DNA of 64,000 bases from Natronolimnobius sp. AArcel1. GTDB taxonomy: Archaea > Halobacteriota > Halobacteria > Halobacteriales > Natrialbaceae. Positions 7,358 through 41,241 of the stretch are shown here, one piece after another (positions within the stretch are counted from its first letter, which is position 1; every line of letters begins with the position of its first letter). Both the position numbers and the translations under genes were made by a program. Under the pieces are notes generated by a model. The model was given only the letters and a program-made list of their open reading frames with translations. It searched no databases and was not told the DNA's origin. The stretch covers positions 349,617-413,616 of the forward strand of contig NZ_JAAKXY010000001.1 of assembly GCF_011043775.1 (NCBI RefSeq). The letters are read 5' to 3'.

Positions 7358-9232
7358 ATGGTAGCAGATAACAATGGGAATGGTGACTGGCTAACCCGTC
7401 GAATGGCTCTCAAAAGTGGAGCCATTGGGGGTGCAGCGATGCTCGCAGGGTGTATGGGTGGTGGTGACGATGGGAACGGAAACGGTGATGGCGGTCCGTC
7501 TGGCGAACTCGTTCAGGAGCGAGTTGAGAAGTCCTTTACCAAGTCGCTCCACCGGGGAACCTACGGGATGGACAACGCGTCGTGGAATCCGTTCGATCCG
7601 TCGAACGAGATGGCAGATTTCGATCCACCGGGGTTAATTTACGATCCCCCACTCGTCCACTATCAGAGCCACGATACGTTCCAGGGTGTTATTGCGAATA
7701 ATTGGGAAGACGAGGATGATTCCATCCTAGTCGAGCTCAACGACAACTGGACGTGGCACGATGGCGATTCGGTAACAGTCCATGACTGGATAACAGATCT
7801 CGACATCTGGTTTGCAATCTCGGAGATTACATCACCAGACGATAATCCGAGTACGTACATCGGCGACTACGAAGCAGTGGATGACTATACGATTCGATTC
7901 CACCTCCGGGATGACTTTACAATGGAATCCGTGCTGATCAACGAGATTGCAAACGGACCTCTGATCATCAAAGAGGACGTTGGCTCGCCCTCGTTCGGCG
8001 AGTGGCGCGACGACCTCGTTGATGTTGACCCCGAAAGCGATGAGGCGACCGAACTGGTCTCTGACTTTCAGGAGTGGTCACCAGAAATCGACGAGGTTGT
8101 CGGGAACGGCCCGTTTGAGCTAGTAGAAGTGACGGATACGTCCTTTGTCACAGAAGTGTACGACGACCACCCGAACGCGGACAACATCTACTTCGAGGAG
8201 TACGTTATCGAACACCACGAAGATCAGGTGCTCGCGTTCATGGAGGGAGCAGTCGACGCAATTGGGTTGAACCTCCCTGACTCCCCAGACGTCATGGAGC
8301 AACTGCCAGACCACCACGAAATCAATCGCGATTTCGACCACCTCTGGTCGATCCTCTTTAACTTCGGCGACTACAGCTGGTCCGACTCGCCGGCCAGCGA
8401 TCCGACGAACCAGCCGATTACGGCCGACGAAAACGTTCGGAAAGCCATCGCCTACGCACTTGATCGCGACCAAATCGCAACGTCAGTCCCGTCGGAGTAC
8501 GAACTGTACGAACTGCCACCAACGTTCCTCAACCAGACCGCAGTCGATGAGGGACTCGTCGATATCGACGGTTACGACAACTACGATACCGACCTCGAGC
8601 GAGCAACGGAGCTGATGGAAGAAGCTGGCTACGAGTTAGACGACGACATGTGGTACGACGAGGACGGCGAGCCAGCCGAACTCGAGTTGCTTGCCCAGTC
8701 GGGGACCAGCGTGCAGGTTGACGCCCTCGACTCCGTGCAGTACCAGCTCAACGAGTTTGGTTTCGATGCAAATCTCAACGCAGTTGATGAGGCGACGTAC
8801 GGTGAGAGTCGCTTCAACGGTGATCACGACCTTCTCTTTGATAACCATCCCGTGTTCTCGATCATGGGCATGACGTTCGTTGACTTCGTCTGGGACTGGT
8901 TCAGCCAACTGAATCATATCGACTACGGAGACGAGGAGTGGGAGGTTTCGGACGAAATCGGCAACCCCGATGCCAGTGGCACAATGTCCATCAACGTTCT
9001 GGACGAAATCGAACAACTTCATCTCACTGGCGACGACGAATACGTACAGCGCCTGACCTGGTGGTACAACCAGGCGCTACCGATGTACGGGATCGTCATC
9101 GCGGGTGACTACGGTGCGATTCAGGCAGACGAATGGCACGTCGATGGTCCTGACGAACTGCTCGATAACCGTGTCGCTGAATTCAACCTAACGAAGATTC
9201 CAGACGGCGAACTGATCCCGTACAAAGAGTAA
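7358..9232 (+). CDS. ABC transporter solute-binding lipoprotein, family 5 (Dpp/Opp type), orphan copy
   Basis: Extracellular binding protein for an oligopeptide-type ABC importer, 624 residues from the ATG at 7358. This start is chosen because the TATA element at 7329-7336 places the mRNA 5' end there; the ATG at 7340 would be upstream of it. Twin-arginine signal LTRRMALKSG, hydrophobic stretch, then lipobox LAGC with the lipid-anchored Cys, followed by a Gly/Asp/Asn linker. Closely similar over its whole length to the binding protein at 29026-30891 (both have TKSLHRGTYGMDNASWNP and the C-terminal RVAEFNLTKIPD). No permease or ATPase adjoins it, so it probably feeds the transporter at 24542-28944. 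In haloarchaea this class often imports oligosaccharides rather than peptides, which fits the setting. Confidence 0.9.
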   Translation: MVADNNGNGDWLTRRMALKSGAIGGAAMLAGCMGGGDDGNGNGDGGPSGELVQERVEKSFTKSLHRGTYGMDNASWNPFDPSNEMADFDPPGLIYDPPLVHYQSHDTFQGVIANNWEDEDDSILVELNDNWTWHDGDSVTVHDWITDLDIWFAISEITSPDDNPSTYIGDYEAVDDYTIRFHLRDDFTMESVLINEIANGPLIIKEDVGSPSFGEWRDDLVDVDPESDEATELVSDFQEWSPEIDEVVGNGPFELVEVTDTSFVTEVYDDHPNADNIYFEEYVIEHHEDQVLAFMEGAVDAIGLNLPDSPDVMEQLPDHHEINRDFDHLWSILFNFGDYSWSDSPASDPTNQPITADENVRKAIAYALDRDQIATSVPSEYELYELPPTFLNQTAVDEGLVDIDGYDNYDTDLERATELMEEAGYELDDDMWYDEDGEPAELELLAQSGTSVQVDALDSVQYQLNEFGFDANLNAVDEATYGESRFNGDHDLLFDNHPVFSIMGMTFVDFVWDWFSQLNHIDYGDEEWEVSDEIGNPDASGTMSINVLDEIEQLHLTGDDEYVQRLTWWYNQALPMYGIVIAGDYGAIQADEWHVDGPDELLDNRVAEFNLTKIPDGELIPYKE

Positions 9233-9344
9233 TTTACTTGTCGTCCCCGATTTTTGCACTCTGTCGGCCCGAAAAACTCGACGCCACCGCATCGTGTGTA
9301 TCAGCGATAGCCACTGTAGACATCTTTCAGCGATAATCATTAGC

Positions 9345-28944: not shown

Positions 28945-29025
28945 TGTATAGCTACGTCGTGATACGGTATCATTAGTATTGTGGTATTTGGTACCGTGGC
29001 GAATACGGATTTGGATAGAGCGGGA

Positions 29026-30891
29026 CTACTCTTCGTACGGGATCAGTTCAGCGTCCGGAATCTTCGTCAGGTTGAACTCGGCGACCCGATTGTCGAGTAG
29101 TTCCTCAGGCGCGTCAACGTGCCACTCGTCGGAACGGATCGCACCGTAGTCACCCGCGATGACGACTCCGTACATCGGCAGTGTCTGGTTGAGCCACCAG
29201 GCCAACCGCTCGATGTACTCATCGTCACCAGTGAGGTGGAGCTGTTCGATCTCGTCCATGACAGTCAGTTCCATCGTCCCACTGGCGTCAGGGTTCCCGA
29301 TTTCATCAGGAATTTCCCATGTTTCGCTTTCGTAGTCGACGTGATTCAGCTGGCTGAACCACTCCCAAACGTGGTCGACGAACGTCAGTCCCATGATCGA
29401 GAACACGGGATGGTTGTCGAAGAGAAGGTCGTGATCGCCGTCGAAGCGACTCTCACCGTACGTCGCCTCATCAACCGCGTTGAGCGTCGCGTCGAATCCA
29501 AACTCCTCGAGTTGATACTGCACGGAGTCGAGGGCATCAACCTGCACGCTCGTTCCCGACTGGGCGAGTAACTCGAGTTCGGCCGGGTCGCCGTCCTCGT
29601 CGTACCACATGCCGTCGTCTAGCTGGTAGCCAGCTTCTTCCATCAGCTCCGTAGCCCGGTCGAGGTCGGTATCGTAGTTGTCGTAGCCCTCAACATCGAC
29701 GACTCCCTCGTCGACTGCGGTCTGGTTGAGGAGCGTCGGTGGCAGTTCGTACAGTTCGTACTCTTCGGGGACGGACGTCCAGATTTGCTCCCGATCAAGT
29801 GCACAGGCGATGGCTTTCCGGACGTTTTCGTCGGCTGTAATCGGCTGGTTGGTCGGATTACTGGCGGGCGAATCAGACCAGTCGTAGTCGCCGAAATTAA
29901 ACAAAATTGACCAGAGGTGGTCGTAATCACGGTTGATTTCGTGGTGTGGTGGGAGCTGGTCCATAACGTCAGGCGACTCCGGCAGATTGAGGCCGATCGA
30001 ATCGACCGACTCCTCCATAAACGCGAGCACCTGGTCTTCGTGGTGCTCGATAACGTACTCCTCAAAGTAGATATTGTCCGCGTTCGGGTGATCATCGTAG
30101 ACCGTCCCGACGAACGACGTATCCGTCACTTCCTCGAGTTCGAATGGGCCGTTTCCGACAATGTCGTCAACGTCTGGCGACCACTCCTGGAACTCAGAGA
30201 CAAGTTCGGTTGCCTCGTCGCTTTCAGCATCGACATCCAGTAAATCATCGCGCCACTCCCCGAACGAGGGTGAACCGACGTCCTCCTTGATAATTACGAG
30301 GTCATCAGCGAGTTCGTTCGCGAGAACGGACTCCATCGTAAAGTCATCGCGAAGGTAATAGCGAATCGCATACTCGTCGACGATTTCGTAATCTTCGATG
30401 TAGGAACTTGCATGCGAATCTGGAGACGTGATATCAGAGATACGGAACCGAATATCAATATCAGTAGCAATATCTGCAGTCGTAACCGAATCGCCGTCGT
30501 GCCACGTCCAGTTGTCGCTGAGTTCGAGCAACAGCGAATCGCCTTCGTCTTCCCAATTCTCTGCAATCACGCCCTCGAAGGAATCGTGGCTGTGGTAGTG
30601 AACGAGTAGTGGATCGTAGATCAGTCCCGGTGGATCGAAGTTCGCCATCTCATCGGATGGATCGTACGGATTCCACGACGCGTTGTCCATCCCGTAGGTT
30701 CCCCGGTGGAGCGACTTCGTAAACTGGCGGTCGACTCGCTCATCGACTGGGTCACGATCACCCGCTGGGTCCTCCCCATTCCCTTCGTCGGTGGCACACC
30801 CCGCAAGTGCTGCCACCCCTCCTGCAACGCCTGCTTTTAACGCAGTCCGTCGAGTGATGGTGCTACGCCAATCATTGCTATTCGTTGGCAT
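29026..30891 (-). CDS. ABC transporter solute-binding lipoprotein, family 5 (Dpp/Opp type)
   Basis: 621 residues from the ATG at 30891; the ATG at 30906 lies upstream of the transcript start predicted from the TATA element at 30917-30927. Twin-arginine signal TITRRTALKAGVAGG and lipobox LAGC. Very similar in full length to the orphan binding protein at 7358-9232, with the greatest divergence in the signal region and linker. First gene of the transporter cluster that continues with DppB, DppC and the fused ATPase. Cargo is probably an acidic oligosaccharide given the enzymes around, but the family also binds peptides. Confidence 0.9.
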   Translation of the reverse strand: MPTNSNDWRSTITRRTALKAGVAGGVAALAGCATDEGNGEDPAGDRDPVDERVDRQFTKSLHRGTYGMDNASWNPYDPSDEMANFDPPGLIYDPLLVHYHSHDSFEGVIAENWEDEGDSLLLELSDNWTWHDGDSVTTADIATDIDIRFRISDITSPDSHASSYIEDYEIVDEYAIRYYLRDDFTMESVLANELADDLVIIKEDVGSPSFGEWRDDLLDVDAESDEATELVSEFQEWSPDVDDIVGNGPFELEEVTDTSFVGTVYDDHPNADNIYFEEYVIEHHEDQVLAFMEESVDSIGLNLPESPDVMDQLPPHHEINRDYDHLWSILFNFGDYDWSDSPASNPTNQPITADENVRKAIACALDREQIWTSVPEEYELYELPPTLLNQTAVDEGVVDVEGYDNYDTDLDRATELMEEAGYQLDDGMWYDEDGDPAELELLAQSGTSVQVDALDSVQYQLEEFGFDATLNAVDEATYGESRFDGDHDLLFDNHPVFSIMGLTFVDHVWEWFSQLNHVDYESETWEIPDEIGNPDASGTMELTVMDEIEQLHLTGDDEYIERLAWWLNQTLPMYGVVIAGDYGAIRSDEWHVDAPEELLDNRVAEFNLTKIPDAELIPYEE

Positions 30892-34287: not shown

Positions 34288-36078
34288 TCACGACGCTCGA
34301 ATGGGGTACTCGACGAGGTGGAAGAACGCCGTTCGCACGTTGTCGGGCAGCGACGAGGCGATCTCGGCGGCTCGTTCGTCGATTTGCTCGTAGGCCTCGA
34401 GGCGGCGCTCGGCTTCGTCGCCGTGGGCAATCGCACTGAACTCGGGTTCGTTCTTCTCGGTGTTCGGGTAGACGCTGTTCCAGCCGAGGTGTTCGGGCTT
34501 TCGTGCGAGCGCGAGTCGGTAGTACTCCGTGAGTATGTCGGCGATTTCGTCTGCGCGTTCCGGCCGGAACTCGCGGGCTGCCCACTGTGTCAGCCACTCC
34601 GTCTCCGAACGCGCCGCAGTCGACTCGAGATCCCAGGCTAACTCGAGGAAGTACTCAGTCTCTTTCTCAGCGGGCTTGAGGTCACCGACGTTAGCCATCC
34701 AGAACGTATCAGCGCCGTGGCGGTAGGCTCGTACCAGTTCCTGGCGGATCAGCGCCGGCGGAATCGAGCAAAGCCACTGGTGGTCGTGCGGACGACCCCA
34801 GTACGAGAGGTGATAGTAAACGCCGTGGCCACCGGCTCGCTCCCGCTCGTCTTCCCTCGGCAGTCGGCGCATGAACCCGAAGTTGTCGTCGGGCCAGACG
34901 AGACAGACATCGTCGGGAACGTCGACTCCCTCGCGGTAGATCTCGAGTGTCTCCTTGTACGGACAGAAAATCTGCGGGATGGATTCGACCGGTGATGTGT
35001 GATGCTCGTCGAGGATCTCGCGCTGCTCGTCGATCACCTGTTGAAGTAAGTCGGCGCGCTCCTCGAGCGTGTCGCCGCCGGGCATCCCCGAGTCGTGAAT
35101 GCCGCGCATTCCGATGGTGAACATGTTTTCGGAGCCCGCAACGTCTTCTACGCGGTCGGTCCAGTACTGCCGGATCGTCTCGGCGTTGGTCTCGTAGTTC
35201 CACTCGCCGTGTACGTCGGCGTCCCACTCGCCGACGTTGTTCCGGTGCATCGGCTCGCAGTGAGAGGTTCCGACGACGATGTGATAGCGGTCGGCGGCTT
35301 CGGCCGTCCCCTCACACTGGTAGAACGCTTTCGTCCCCTCGTGCATCGCCGGCCAGATCGTGTTCGCTTTGAGCCGTAACAGGAGTTCGAACAGCCGTTC
35401 GTACGTTTTCGGCCCGATTCCATCCGGCACCTCGGGTTCGTGGGTGTGCTGTGCCCACTCGCGAATGCCGAAATCCTCGTCGTTGATGAACACGCCCCGA
35501 TAGCGAACCGACGGCGGTCCCGCCCACTCGAGGCCGTGACTCACATACAATTCGTCGTAGTCGGCAGTTGGCACGTCCGCCCACCAGTACCACGGCGAGA
35601 CGCCGATTTTCCGTGCGAATTCGTAGACGCCGTATGCGGTTCCACGGGGGTCGCTACCGGCGATGAGCAGCGTTTCGTCCGTTCCGAACAAGGACGTACC
35701 GGTGTCATCGGCTGTCGATTCCGCAGCGATGAGATAGCTCTCTGGTCCCTCGAGTCCGTCGTCCTCGCTTCTGTGCGTCTCGAGAACCTGCTCGACCGCG
35801 CGATCAAAGACAGCGTCGACGCCGTACGTCCCGACGATGATGGCTCGCTCGCCGCAGTCCTCGAGGCCGCGCTCGCGGGCTGGTCGCTGGCCCGTTACGC
35901 GTTCGATGTCGTCTTGGAGGTCGCTGGTTGCGATTTCGACGACTGACTCGGTGGCAACGTACCGAATCGGAGCAGCCGAATCGGTGACAAGCGAGATGGC
36001 GTCACACTGGCCCCTCTCGCTGCTATCGCGGCCGTCTGTTCCGCGTATCGCGATCCCGTCTGCATCCGTGTCGGTCAT
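34288..36078 (-). CDS. GH115 xylan alpha-1,2-glucuronidase, N-terminal part (premature stop)
   Basis: 596 residues. GH115 enzymes remove (4-O-methyl-)glucuronic acid from internal or terminal sugar residues. N-terminal alpha/beta domain with DETLLIAGSDPRGTAYGVYEF, then the catalytic barrel: WADVPTADYDE, YRGVFINDEDFG, LLLRLKANTIWPAMHEG, GTSHCEPMHRNN, FTIGMRGIHDSGMPG, VWPDDNFGF and YYHLSYWGRPHDHQW. Ends at TGA 34288-34290 inside EYPIRAS, where family members continue without a break; the next codons of the same frame resume a typical GH115 sequence. The two parts together give about 981 residues, a normal GH115 length. No signal peptide. Without the missing part the enzyme is probably inactive or weak. 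Confidence 0.85.
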   Translation of the reverse strand: MTDTDADGIAIRGTDGRDSSERGQCDAISLVTDSAAPIRYVATESVVEIATSDLQDDIERVTGQRPARERGLEDCGERAIIVGTYGVDAVFDRAVEQVLETHRSEDDGLEGPESYLIAAESTADDTGTSLFGTDETLLIAGSDPRGTAYGVYEFARKIGVSPWYWWADVPTADYDELYVSHGLEWAGPPSVRYRGVFINDEDFGIREWAQHTHEPEVPDGIGPKTYERLFELLLRLKANTIWPAMHEGTKAFYQCEGTAEAADRYHIVVGTSHCEPMHRNNVGEWDADVHGEWNYETNAETIRQYWTDRVEDVAGSENMFTIGMRGIHDSGMPGGDTLEERADLLQQVIDEQREILDEHHTSPVESIPQIFCPYKETLEIYREGVDVPDDVCLVWPDDNFGFMRRLPREDERERAGGHGVYYHLSYWGRPHDHQWLCSIPPALIRQELVRAYRHGADTFWMANVGDLKPAEKETEYFLELAWDLESTAARSETEWLTQWAAREFRPERADEIADILTEYYRLALARKPEHLGWNSVYPNTEKNEPEFSAIAHGDEAERRLEAYEQIDERAAEIASSLPDNVRTAFFHLVEYPIRAS

Positions 36079-36210
36079 GTGCTACACTGCTATCGTGCAT
36101 GACTATTAGTCTGTTTGCTTACCGTTGTTGCTTACCACAAACGGTGGCCAACTGCGACTCACCCAGTACTGGTCCCTAGCTTTTTGAGTATCTGCTGCGT
36201 TGACGGTCGT

Positions 36211-37887
36211 ATGCTACACGCCACGGGCACGCTGTGTTCGATTGATGTCGGTGAACGGTCATCGGTGACCGAATCCATCGATGAGGAACTCGCATCCTTC
36301 GTCGGCGGACGCGGCGTTGCGACCAAACTCGCTCACGACCGCATTCCGTTCGATGCCGACCCCTACGGACCCGAGAACCGGTTTTACCTCTCTGCTGGCC
36401 CACTCCAACAGTCCCAGATGAGTTTCACCGGCCGGATGAACTGTACCGCACTCTCGCCGCTAACGGACGGCGTTGCCTCCGCTAGTGCCGGAGGGTATCT
36501 CTCGCGGAACTTCGTCGACACCGGCCATAGCGCCATCGAACTCACCGGCGAAAGCGACGACCTGCTCGCCGTCCACGTCACCGACGACGGCGTCGAGTTC
36601 GAGGAAGTGCCCGAACTCGAGGATGCAACCGTCACCGAAGTCACGGCCGCGATGAACGACCGCCACGGTCTCGAGGCCGAGAACCTCGCCACCATCGGTC
36701 CCGCGGGTGAGCGCGGCGTGCGCTTTGCCTGCGTGATGACCTACGACAGTCGCGCGTTCGGTCGCGGCGGCCTCGGCGCGGTCATGGGCGCGAAAAACGT
36801 CAAGTGCATCTCGTTCCGTGGCGACTCCGCACCTGACCTCGAGATGCCGGCTGACGCCGAGGAGATTCACTCGACCGTCCATCAGGAAGCCGCGACCAGC
36901 GACGACATGATGCGTCGGCAGGGGACGTCCAGTTCGGTCGAGTTCGTCAACGACAACTTCTCGTTCCCGACGCGGTACTTCTCCGAGCAGTCGTTCGAAG
37001 ATATCGACCAGATCCACGGCGACGCCATCGAGGAGAAAAAGTACACAAAGGCCTCCTGTTCGGTCTGTGCGTTCGCGTGTAAGCTCCCAACCAAGGACGA
37101 AGAGCGAGGCGTCGAAACCGAAGGCCCTGAACTCGAGACGGTCTACTCGTTGGGCTCGAACTGTGGCGTCGGCGACATCGTCGACCTGATGAAGTCCAAC
37201 GAGCTGTGCGACCAGTACGGGATGGACACCATCTCGGCCGGCGTCACCGTTGCAGCCTACCTCGCCAGTACGGATGAGTTCGGCAATGCCGAGCTCGTCC
37301 ACGATCTGCTCGAGAAAATCGCGTTCCGTGAGGACGAGGGCGACCTGCTCGCGGAGGGCGTCGACCGCATCCACGACGACCTCGGCGTCGAGAACTTCTC
37401 GGTCAAAGGCATGGAGTTCGCCGCCCACGACGGCCGCGCACTCCACGGCCAGGGCCTCTCCTACGCTGTGGCGAACCGCGGCGGCGACCACATGTACTCG
37501 ACGACGCTCGGCGACGAGTACGGCGGCGAGGTCGATCCGCAGGGGACTGCAGGGAAGGCCGGACTCGTAATCGAAAACGAGAACCGTAACGCGTTCCGCG
37601 ACTGTGGCATCATCTGCCAGTTCGGTGTTGGCCGCGCCGTCGAAGGCGAGCGCTTCGAACTCCTGTTCGACGCTGACTACGACGACCTCCTCGAGGTCGG
37701 CTCCCGTGTCGTCGAACTCGAGCGTCACTTCCGAAACCAGCGTGGCTACGACGCCGCCGAAGACCGGCTGCCCTACGATCTGCCGGATCTCGAGTCCTCA
37801 ATCGAGGAGTACTACGAACTGCGCGGCTGGAACGACGACGGTACGGTGCCGACCGATGCCCTCGAGAGCGAGGCGACGGCCGATTAA
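36211..37887 (+). CDS. Aldehyde ferredoxin oxidoreductase family tungstoenzyme
   Basis: 558 residues from the ATG at 36211 (MLHATGTLCSIDVG). AOR family: N-terminal domain with FVGGRGVATKL and GPLQQSQMSFTGRMN, cofactor-binding GRGGLGAVMGAKNVK (184-198), and the 4Fe-4S cluster cysteines Cys283, Cys286, Cys290 plus a distal Cys in DCGIICQFG. Binds a tungsten or molybdenum bis-pyranopterin and oxidises aldehydes to acids with ferredoxin, in the cytoplasm. Converges on the MoaD-like gene with only 6 bases between stops. In this locus it may oxidise an aldehyde from deoxy-sugar breakdown such as lactaldehyde, but no aldolase is present here; the substrate is unknown. Confidence 0.9.
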   Translation: MLHATGTLCSIDVGERSSVTESIDEELASFVGGRGVATKLAHDRIPFDADPYGPENRFYLSAGPLQQSQMSFTGRMNCTALSPLTDGVASASAGGYLSRNFVDTGHSAIELTGESDDLLAVHVTDDGVEFEEVPELEDATVTEVTAAMNDRHGLEAENLATIGPAGERGVRFACVMTYDSRAFGRGGLGAVMGAKNVKCISFRGDSAPDLEMPADAEEIHSTVHQEAATSDDMMRRQGTSSSVEFVNDNFSFPTRYFSEQSFEDIDQIHGDAIEEKKYTKASCSVCAFACKLPTKDEERGVETEGPELETVYSLGSNCGVGDIVDLMKSNELCDQYGMDTISAGVTVAAYLASTDEFGNAELVHDLLEKIAFREDEGDLLAEGVDRIHDDLGVENFSVKGMEFAAHDGRALHGQGLSYAVANRGGDHMYSTTLGDEYGGEVDPQGTAGKAGLVIENENRNAFRDCGIICQFGVGRAVEGERFELLFDADYDDLLEVGSRVVELERHFRNQRGYDAAEDRLPYDLPDLESSIEEYYELRGWNDDGTVPTDALESEATAD

Positions 37888-37893
37888 TCTCCG

Positions 37894-38190
37894 TTAGCGG
37901 CCGCAGCCACCTTCTGCCGGCGGTGACGCACTGAGCGTATCGCCATCCTCGAGTGGTGTGTCGATGCCGTCCTCGAAGGCGACGTTACGGCCGTTTTTCA
38001 TGACGCTAATCGAATCGCTGAATGTTCGGTCCTCATCGAATAGCAGCGCTCGCAGATCGGGATACTCCGCAGCGAGGTCGTCGAAGACGTCGCCAGCAGT
38101 TTCCTCGGCGTCGATTTCGCGCTCGAGCGATTTCGTGCCGACGATCTCTCGCAGAGGGCCGTAAAGTGTGCAGGTTACGTGGTGTGTCAT
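37894..38190 (-). CDS. MoaD/ThiS-like ubiquitin-fold protein
   Basis: 98 residues from the ATG at 38190 (MTHHVTCTLYGPLREIVG). A beta-grasp protein: FDDLAAEYPDLRALLFDEDR, ISVMKNGRNVAFEDGIDTPLEDGDTLS and a C-terminal PPAEGG. MoaD proteins carry a C-terminal Gly-Gly that is thiocarboxylated to supply sulfur for pyranopterin synthesis. Here three residues (CGR) follow the Gly-Gly, so either they are removed or the protein does not work as a normal sulfur carrier. Head-to-head position with the AOR gene points to service of the tungsten cofactor. Related haloarchaeal SAMP proteins also end in Gly-Gly. Confidence 0.8.
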   Translation of the reverse strand: MTHHVTCTLYGPLREIVGTKSLEREIDAEETAGDVFDDLAAEYPDLRALLFDEDRTFSDSISVMKNGRNVAFEDGIDTPLEDGDTLSASPPAEGGCGR

Positions 38191-38298
38191 TGACACAGGA
38201 TTAGACAGCACAGCCCTTCAAAGTCGCTGTTCGATATCGCTGACAGCCGTGGCGAACTCATTCGTCGCTGGGAGGGATAGGTACTGTTGAAATCTCGA

Positions 38299-38467
38299 GG
38301 CCGGGACCGTTCGACGTGTGCGATGCCGTGGCGCACACGTCGTGGCTCCTATTCCCGGCCGGCCGAGACAGCGGCGGGAGGGGGAGTTCCCGCCGCCGTT
38401 GGATATGCCAGGAACCGCAAGGTGCGGTCGGTGAAGTGGTGCCAGTTACCGGAACGTTCCGGTAGCT
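38299..38467. ncRNA. Candidate structured RNA: five hairpins in 170 bases
   Basis: Perfect stems: GGCCGGGA/TCCCGGCC (38299-38306 with 38353-38360) enclosing CGACGTGTGCG/CGCACACGTCG (38312-38322 with 38332-38342); GCGGCGGGA/TCCCGCCGC (38371-38379 with 38388-38396); ACCGCA/TGCGGT (38414-38419 with 38423-38428); and the palindrome TACCGGAACGTTCCGGTA (38447-38464), extendable by 3 pairs. Strand is uncertain. On the minus strand AAATATAAT (about 38508-38517) could start a transcript near 38487 that carries these stems as a long leader of the MoaD-like gene. It lacks the conserved elements I know for SRP RNA, RNase P RNA and cobalamin or TPP riboswitches. A mobile-element remnant is the main alternative. 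Confidence 0.45.
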
Positions 38468-38690
38468 ATGCCGATGATGGGAGAGGTGAAAAATCTTCTG
38501 TATAGATGATTATATTTCTGCGGATTGATGACGGCCTTGGCTCAAATCCGGCAATATCGAATCGTCCGTATTCTGATGATACAGGGAATGAAAGAGAGGT
38601 TTTCGACTGATAGGTACCCAGATACTGTAGTACCACGTCCGGTGGTGCCGAATAAAACAGTGAGCAATAGACGAGTTTTTGACCAGCGAG

Positions 38691-38712
38691 TTACAGACAT
38701 ACTACTGTAAAT
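38691..38712. repeat. TACAG-N8-CTGTA element, copy 2
   Basis: TTACAGACATACTACTGTAA forms TTACAG/CTGTAA arms around 8 bases (38691-38710). It matches the element at 14191-14210 in 18 of 20 bases, and a more diverged form (TACAGTAGTACTAATGTAAA) lies at the right end of the relic at about 31707-31726. Confidence 0.45.
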
Positions 38713-39024
38713 ATATGGCAGTCTACCGTCTCTGTTTGAGGACTCAGGAATTAGAACGGCTCTACTACAGGATATCTGCCGATCTGGTTTATATCCGGTG
38801 CTAACGGACGCCAGTGATATGTTCCACCATGACATGTTTCGATGTTACACCGGGCTGATCGACAGCACAGGAGCGCTTCCACGAATTCTCTCAATACATG
38901 GCATCAGAACGGTCAACAGCATTCATGGACTGACGGTCGCAGCCACCGGATACGGATAATGGCCCCTCCTCGAGAAAACACACTGCCACGCAAAGAGGCG
39001 ATACCAGCCCACGACGCTGGCGCG

Positions 39025-41241
39025 CTACGACTGTGGTGGGTCGATGAGCGTGATCGGATGGCATGGCTGGCGCGTCAGCAACGAATCTAACTGCTCGAGA
39101 CAGGACGTGCCGCTGGCGACGACGGTCCGCCCCGCAGCCTCGGGCGTCTCGAACTGCGTCCCAAGTCGGTCCCCAACGTCCATGCTCAGTTCGTAGTACT
39201 CGCTCTTGTAGCCGAAACTGCCGGCCATACCACAACACTCCACATCGGAGGTGAGCACGTCGTACTCGAGGTTTTCGAGGACGGCCGTCGTGTACGACTC
39301 GAGGCCAAGCGTGCGCTGCTGGCAGTGTGAGTGGTAGGCAATCTCCTTGGTCGCGCCTCGGTCAGCACCCCGCAGTTCCGCAGGGTCTGCACCGTTCTCG
39401 AGCAGGCCATAGATGTACTCGAACACCTCGTAGCTCTGGCTCGCAAGCGGCTCGTACTGTTCCTCGGCAAGCAGTTTCTCGTACTCGCGCTGGAACATCG
39501 CGTGATCGCTCGGTTCGATGACGACCACGTCGTAGCCCGCCTCGAGATAGGACTCGAGCGAGTCTGCGACCTGTTCGGCGTGGCCCCCAGCAGTGTCGAC
39601 CATCCCCTGCGAGAGCGGCGCACGTCCCGACGCGCCCACGTCGGGCACCTCGACGGCGACGCCGAGTGCCTCGAGCGTTCGAACGGTTGCTTTCCCGCGC
39701 TCGGTACGGACGTGGTTCGTGTAGAGGTCAGGATAGACGACCGCGTGGTAGTCGGCGTCGACAGGCCGAGGTACGTCTCGGGTGCGGAACCACTCGACGA
39801 ACGTCTCGCGTTCGAAACTGGGGAGTTCGCGCCGCCGGTCGATGCCGAGAACGCGCTCCATGAGCCATCTCGAGGGCGGGAGATCCGCGCCCCAGTTCGA
39901 GAGCGGTGCAGTCGCAGAGCCGAGTTTTGCGAGCGTCGAAAAGTTCCCAAAGAACCGCTTTTGGAGATCGAGGCCGGCGGGTTCTGCGTCGGGTGTGAGC
40001 CCCTCGACGAGGAAGTCGAACTGGCCGTCCCCACCGTCGCGATTGATCCGGTCACGGACGACGGTGTTGATCCATGGGATGTCGATTTTGACCGGGCACT
40101 GATTGACACAGCGCGAGCAGCCGGTACAGAGGTCATTGAATTCTGCGGCGCTCTCTTGGCTGTGCACGCCAGCTTCCCACCCTGTTGCAATGCCGCCGGT
40201 GTAGGTCTCGCCGCCGAAGGCGTGGCCGCCGACGGACTGGAAGTTCGAACACGAGTTCGCACAGGCCGAACACCGGATGCAGTACAGCGTCTCGCACAAC
40301 TGGTCGTCTTCGCGCATGTCCATCCGGCCGTTATCGAGCAAGACGAGGTGGAACGCTCGGTCGTCCGGATCGTTGGCAATCGGTTCGTCTGAGTCGAAAT
40401 CAACTGGCGGCGTCGAAACTGGTGGCGAGAACAACGACACGTAGGAGGTGATGTCTTGGCCTGTCCCCGAGCGGCCGATGAGTTCGACGAACGGCTGGAG
40501 TTCTTCGAATGTTGGAATAATCTTTTCGACGCCCGCGACCGCGACATGCGTGTCCGGCACCGCAACGGTCTTGCGGGCGTTGCCCTCGCTCGTCACCAGC
40601 GCAATCGTTCCCGTATCCGCTGTGACGAAGTTTGCGCCGGTAATTCCGAGGTCAGCCTCCCGAATCTGGTCACCGAGATACTCTCGCGCGAAGTCCGTGA
40701 GTTCCTGGGCCGTCTCGAGGTCCTCGTCCGTGTCGAAGTGTTCGTTAAACAGGTCAGCGATGTCCTCACACGAGCGGTGGATTGCGGGTGCGACGAGGTG
40801 ACTCGGGGCTTCCTCTGCGACCTGTAAGACGAACTCGCCTAAGTCAGTCTCCCAGACCTCGCTGCCTTCGGCCTCGAGGGCGTCGTTGAGTTCGATCTCC
40901 TCGGTGGTCATCGACTTCGATTTGACCACGGTTTCGGCCTCAGTGTCGCGGGCGACCTCGCGAATGTAGCGGTTGGCGTCCGCAGCGTCCTCAGCGAGAT
41001 AGACCGTCCCGCCATTGGCTTCGACCGTTTCACGGACCTGCTCGATCAGGTCGGGTAGGCGTTCGATTGCGTCTTCCTTGATCGCCCGCGCTCGATCCTT
41101 GTACTCCTCGTACTCCTCGAGTCGGGCGACGGATTCGTAGCGCCCGTCGTTGAAGCCGCGGGCGTTTGCCTCGACGCTTTCGCCCTCGGTGGCAAGCAGA
41201 TGACGGATGTGTTCTGCCTTCTGCGTGCGGTCGGCCGCCAT
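39025..41241 (-). CDS. Lactate oxidation iron-sulfur protein, LutB-LutA-like fusion
   Basis: 738 residues from the ATG at 41241. N-terminal LUD domain (VYLAEDAADANRYIREVA, ETVVKSKSMTTEEIELNDALE, ITGANFVTADTGTIALVTSEGN), then two 4Fe-4S sets, CIRCSACANSC and CTGCSRCVNQCP, then CCG-type Cys-rich domains with HSHCQQRTLG and VECCGMAGSFGYK. In bacteria LutA and LutB are separate proteins that oxidise L-lactate to pyruvate with LutC; here both appear in one chain. The TGA of the upstream LutC-like gene overlaps this ATG by one base. L-lactate is the expected product of the oxidative rhamnose route encoded at 13-20 kb, so the gene closes that pathway. Confidence 0.87.
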   Translation of the reverse strand: MAADRTQKAEHIRHLLATEGESVEANARGFNDGRYESVARLEEYEEYKDRARAIKEDAIERLPDLIEQVRETVEANGGTVYLAEDAADANRYIREVARDTEAETVVKSKSMTTEEIELNDALEAEGSEVWETDLGEFVLQVAEEAPSHLVAPAIHRSCEDIADLFNEHFDTDEDLETAQELTDFAREYLGDQIREADLGITGANFVTADTGTIALVTSEGNARKTVAVPDTHVAVAGVEKIIPTFEELQPFVELIGRSGTGQDITSYVSLFSPPVSTPPVDFDSDEPIANDPDDRAFHLVLLDNGRMDMREDDQLCETLYCIRCSACANSCSNFQSVGGHAFGGETYTGGIATGWEAGVHSQESAAEFNDLCTGCSRCVNQCPVKIDIPWINTVVRDRINRDGGDGQFDFLVEGLTPDAEPAGLDLQKRFFGNFSTLAKLGSATAPLSNWGADLPPSRWLMERVLGIDRRRELPSFERETFVEWFRTRDVPRPVDADYHAVVYPDLYTNHVRTERGKATVRTLEALGVAVEVPDVGASGRAPLSQGMVDTAGGHAEQVADSLESYLEAGYDVVVIEPSDHAMFQREYEKLLAEEQYEPLASQSYEVFEYIYGLLENGADPAELRGADRGATKEIAYHSHCQQRTLGLESYTTAVLENLEYDVLTSDVECCGMAGSFGYKSEYYELSMDVGDRLGTQFETPEAAGRTVVASGTSCLEQLDSLLTRQPCHPITLIDPPQS

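Follow-up and report, generated by a model that had tools for sequence, protein, structure and literature searches.

The question raised by the locus analysed here is what occupies a short stretch of DNA, crowded with perfect inverted repeats, upstream of a MoaD-like gene in a genome of haloarchaeal type (G000, 22 contigs totalling 4.56 Mb). A preliminary description had suggested a cofactor- or metal-responsive leader of this gene, a free-standing RNA or a mobile-element remnant. These readings are weighed over the window (the whole stretch of DNA that was analysed, 64 kb) and against the 125 genomes, from 29 genera, of its family. The locus runs from an aldehyde ferredoxin oxidoreductase gene (+) through moaD (-), the element and an AT-richer spacer of ~510 nt to a LUD-domain gene (-), with the following features:

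36208..37887, plus strand: aldehyde ferredoxin oxidoreductase (AOR) gene, Pfam AFOR_N and AFOR_C, convergent with moaD
37894..38190, minus strand: MoaD/ThiS-like gene (moaD), Pfam ThiS (E 4.5e-10), a neighbour outside the element
38292..38507, putatively minus strand: conserved structured noncoding block, a candidate gene for a small RNA, promoter-proximal edge included, from the alignment with the sister species G096 and the folding z-score
39025..41541, minus strand: LUD-domain iron-sulfur protein gene, LutB-like with a LutA-like C-terminal half, Pfam LUD_dom and Fer4

The tungsten-enzyme gene previously described as opposing moaD is borne out by the two Pfam domains of the AOR gene. This gene is adjoined by that of a glycosyl hydrolase family 115 protein (xylan alpha-1,2-glucuronidase family) at 34288-36078.

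Hairpins and folding of the element

Five perfect stems of 11, 9, 9, 8 and 6 bp lie within 38299-38464, and all of them were recovered where the preliminary description had placed them, one by direct reading of the sequence (the 8-bp stem 38299-38306/38353-38360). They form four structures:

38299..38360, minus strand: compound hairpin, in which the outer 8-bp stem (38299-38306/38353-38360) surrounds the 11-bp stem (38312-38322/38332-38342)
38368..38399, minus strand: GC-rich hairpin, with 9 perfect bp (38371-38379/38388-38396), or 12 bp at 92%
38414..38428, minus strand: short hairpin of 6 bp (38414-38419/38423-38428) with a 3-nt loop, unchanged in G096
38447..38464, no strand: perfect palindrome of 18 nt, TACCGGAACGTTCCGGTA, 9 bp with zero loop, unchanged in G096

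The density of this structure exceeds chance. When perfect stems with 7 or more bp and a loop no longer than 12 nt were counted in 3190 windows of 169 nt, the mean was 1.7 bp of stem per window, while the element holds 29 bp, a total reached by a single one of the 3190 (that at 38301, namely the element); no other stretch of the 64 kb is as dense in hairpins. Folding agrees with this count. On the minus strand the element has a z-score of -4.6, with none of 200 shuffles folding as well, and on the plus strand one of -3.3, also better than shuffles. The 64 kb were also scanned with a pooled standard deviation and with 60 shuffles for the element as against 8 for each background window; among the 674 windows tested, the strongest z-score was that of the element's minus strand.

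Conservation, coding behaviour and distribution

The sole other genome of the genus that was found, that of G096, carries the element at the same locus. The two copies are identical at 200 of the 216 bases of 38292-38507 and at 93.7% of the structured 191 nt, gapless in both cases, and the conservation includes the linkers between the stems. The preliminary description was right to place the stems inside 38299-38467, but the conserved unit extends from ~38292 to 38507. Beyond its edges similarity falls away: the flank on the moaD side (38210-38290, 81 nt) is 75% identical, and the opposite side (38508-38700, 190 nt) is unalignable. The AT-richer spacer as a whole (38508-39020) shows no similarity to G096 or to any other genome of the family. 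Over all 191-nt windows of the genome pair, genes included, the median identity is 86.4%, and that of the element is matched by 318 of 6169 overlapping windows (~5%), nearly all of which form overlapping series within DNA that is coding or probably so. Undisputed intergenic spacers of the pair are mostly 10-75% identical, and the 'intergenic' stretches with higher values are probably genes overlooked by the rough gene finder. Since the identity of the element lies far above that of its flanks and of the spacers of the same pair, the two-species comparison supports its reading as an island under purifying selection within a decayed spacer. The same genome comparison revealed that 7466-9233 and 29018-30747 each match the G096 counterpart of the other on the opposite strand (~80%), the two being similar gene copies, inverted and ~21 kb apart.

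The earlier claim that no protein frame explains the element holds. Its one long frame (72 aa) changes residues freely between the two species, and a protein reading was rejected, given that most substitutions alter the residue in those frames that are open in both species, and that the substitutions are spread over the three codon phases as 8, 7 and 1, a non-coding pattern. The element is intergenic and noncoding, as expected of a haloarchaeal intergenic small RNA.

The element appears to be confined to these two species. DNA searches of 125 family genomes and of 391 class genomes found it in 2 of each set; a third family match, 34 bases long and inside coding DNA of G098, was attributed to chance. 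A covariance model built from the two sequences and run over 392 genomes of the order scored its own members at 242 and 236 bits, and its matches outside the genus (23 bits at most, mostly mismatched and with little in common) were likewise taken as chance. The family, order and class sets overlap, and those of the order and class are samples. This search, which the preliminary description had proposed for recurring linkage to AOR or MoaD genes, was thus carried out over the order, and it recovered only the two members of the genus, with no recurring linkage. Zero related copies were found among plasmids and phages (blastn) or viral contigs (exact patterns), and exact patterns in the contigs of GTDB genomes gave only two proteobacterial matches, at about chance level. 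Each genome holds a single copy of the element. The palindrome TACCGGAACGTTCCGGTA occurs without mismatch once per genome, elsewhere only as isolated matches with three mismatches, and was discarded as a recurrent operator because it does not recur. Known RNA families offered no candidate either. Rfam gave zero matches at gathering level over the 64-kb window, and at a lax E-value the best were ar14, Betaproteobacteria-1 and sR22, all far below their cut-offs; a weak C/D-box-like match on the plus strand was dropped, as its GATGATGG reads GATGCTGG in G096, and ARAGORN found no tRNA or tmRNA in the window. The element would therefore seem to be without a credible relative in the other genomes searched of the order and class, and is known from two species.

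In other genera the slot beside moaD is filled differently. A dehydratase/epimerase-like gene adjoins moaD in G103 and G022, and the possibility that the spacer of the window is a decayed epimerase gene, such as the one present there in G103, was rejected, as zero trace of it was found. In G009 and G010 the spacer between the LUD gene and moaD (L074:7250-7545 in G009, G010:C3:3335012-3335306) is 90% identical over 295 nt and keeps a TATA-like CTTTTACC. This noncoding block was rejected as a counterpart of the element, because its structure is no better than that of shuffles and its sequence is dissimilar; a search for strong structure and for relatives of the block found none, and it may be a small gene or a further RNA limited to its genus. 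Because G009/G010 and G103/G022 hold other contents, the slot is taken to be variable and the element particular to one genus.

Promoters, strand and alternative readings

Two candidate promoter regions bear on how the element and moaD would be transcribed:

38217..38222, minus strand: TTTGAA box, probable TATA element of the moaD leaderless promoter, kept as TTTSAA or TTCAA in seven genomes of four genera
38485..38517, minus strand: possible promoter region of the element, suggested by sequence comparison

In a comparison of 38217-38222 of the window with L005-L011, seven genomes, which represent four genera, all proved to have a box reading TTTSAA (TTTGAA, TTTCAA) or TTCAA ~31-35 nt ahead of the ATG of moaD, at the position and spacing expected for the TATA element of a leaderless transcript. 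In five of the seven, those outside the genus, the element is not detectable. The box sits between the element and moaD, the nearest edge of the element being ~70 nt further upstream. Since 72% of the protein-coding transcripts of Haloferax volcanii are leaderless (PMC4983044), the box is most simply explained as moaD's own leaderless promoter, which it probably is, and the simplest reading of the sequence probably leaves the element outside the main transcript of moaD. In its own right, the moaD box is a clear-cut case of leaderless-promoter conservation in haloarchaea.

This arrangement speaks against the cofactor- or metal-responsive leader of the preliminary description, with a conserved box between the element and moaD and most box-bearing genomes without a detectable element. 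Nevertheless, a second promoter further upstream could yield, in addition to the leaderless transcript, a long structured 5' leader, possibly W/Moco-responsive, as 111 genes of Haloferax volcanii have both leaderless and leadered transcripts (PMC4983044); the element precedes moaD on the same strand with no obvious terminator seen between them, and moaD adjoins a tungsten-enzyme (AOR) gene. Such a leader is unlikely, however, because a probable promoter kept across four genera separates the element from the gene, and the stretch in between is far less conserved (75%). Moreover, moaD-like genes are present in 124 of the 125 family genomes, whereas the element is found in only two genomes of one genus and is not detectable beside the AOR and moaD orthologues of other genera. 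The Rfam search, which included the Moco riboswitch family, gave no match, and control by structured leaders is described as untypical of Haloferax volcanii and haloarchaea (PMC4983044).

As for a promoter of the element itself, the TATA-like sequence previously reported at 38508-38517 exists, but its position is at or just past the edge of the conserved block. The window has TATAAT at 38508-38513, both species keep TCTWTACA and TTTTTCACC, and the AT-rich TATA-like sequence at 38500-38513 is partly kept in G096; a home-made promoter weight matrix, whose scan was not discriminating, did not single out the latter. Neither strand has a clear terminator. The consensus structure, itself derived from the same two sequences, has two changes in its paired columns, and both turn G-C into G-U on the minus strand and into A-C on the plus strand. 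The 11-bp stem has a single change in G096, by which G-C becomes G-U on the minus strand, and the hairpin at 38368..38399, where outer pairs are lost, has one of the same kind; at the border of the 6-bp hairpin, one change speaks for the plus strand. In a random-mutation control of the pairs broken on the minus strand, P was 0.44 in one direction and 0.06 in the other, with two sequences only. The stronger fold, the pair-keeping changes and the partly kept TATA-like sequence are weak signs that the minus strand is the likelier one.

An RNA read from the plus strand, perhaps through divergent activity of the near-palindromic TTTGAA/TTCAAA moaD box, is improbable. Read on that strand as TTCAAA, the box would set a start near 38245, and the plus strand folds better than its shuffles (z -3.3), but its fold is weaker than that of the minus strand, both changes in the consensus stems break pairs on it, and no TATA-like sequence directly before 38292 is kept in G096. 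There is a rather small chance that the element acts as DNA, either as a cluster of protein-binding palindromes (an operator or enhancer) upstream of moaD or as an architectural or recombination site. The loopless perfect palindrome of 18 bp is indeed more operator-like than RNA-hairpin-like and is located upstream of a promoter; however, apart from the isolated matches with three mismatches it is not recurrent in the genome, and the remaining stems have loops of 3-9 nt, one of them nested, with linkers that are conserved too. Least credible of all is a mobile-element remnant, either MITE-like or an IS200/IS605 end, which is very improbable in spite of the dense inverted repeats and of an adjoining spacer that is unalignable between the two species, since many spacers of this genome pair cannot be aligned. 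A remnant in decay would not be expected to exceed its flanks in conservation, no transposase gene lies beside the element, and related copies are absent from the plasmids, phages, viral contigs and other genomes searched. With one copy per genome at a locus shared by both species, and no copies seen at unrelated loci, the multi-copy element considered in the preliminary description is not supported.

A proposed small structured RNA and its comparison with known systems

Structure, conservation above the surroundings, non-protein behaviour and single copy are all supported by the data, and among the three initial suggestions they are best fitted by the free-standing RNA. A free-standing structured small RNA gene, restricted to one genus and most likely on the minus strand, is given an even chance of being the correct explanation. 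According to this explanation, an RNA of ~180-215 nt would be transcribed from the minus strand, with a putative start near the palindromic hairpin (~38475-38490) and an end near 38292, and selection would have kept it in a single genus of the family. Its hairpins would stabilise it at high salt, while its conserved unpaired linkers (such as CUGGCACCACUUCACC and the two GGCAUA boxes) would be predicted to bind a target RNA or protein. A more ambitious version, to which we attach only a small chance, would make it a new class of RNA with an intricate fold and a recent origin in one genus, serving as a metabolite or metal sensor or as a protein scaffold, and controlling the tungsten-enzyme locus in cis or other genes in trans.

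Haloarchaea make many intergenic small RNAs, but to our knowledge few of them come with evidence of selection or of a fold that can be defined. An element that is single-copy and strongly structured, and that has held a coding-like identity while its spacer decayed, is a good candidate for experiments. If it is a genus-restricted small RNA, it adds a new example to an ordinary kind; a role as leader or sensor would be out of the ordinary in haloarchaea, where most transcripts lack a leader.

Among known systems, the Moco/Tuco riboswitch (Rfam RF01055; PMC2408646) resembles the element in having up to five paired elements and in lying near genes for molybdenum or tungsten cofactor use. However, the described riboswitch is found in bacteria (PMC2408646), its covariance model gave no match at E <=5 over 38150-39050, and the element differs from it in lying upstream of a probable leaderless promoter and in being unlinked to the orthologous genes of other genera. 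The omega RNAs associated with IS200/IS605 elements (PMC12558985) are structured RNAs of similar size that also occur in haloarchaea, but the element is single-copy, has no adjoining tnpB-like gene, and relatives of it were not found.

The element also resembles the haloarchaeal intergenic small RNAs, exemplified by sRNA132 of Haloferax volcanii (PMC6560208) and by the itsRNAs of halite communities (PMC7002113), and it is by analogy with them that the putative RNA would most likely act as an intergenic regulatory small RNA. These RNAs are also intergenic and noncoding, the size of the element falls within the range of 50-500 nt given for them, and most of them, like the element, have no known relatives outside a narrow group. 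Compared with them, the element is known from sequence alone and is unusually rich in perfect, GC-rich stems.
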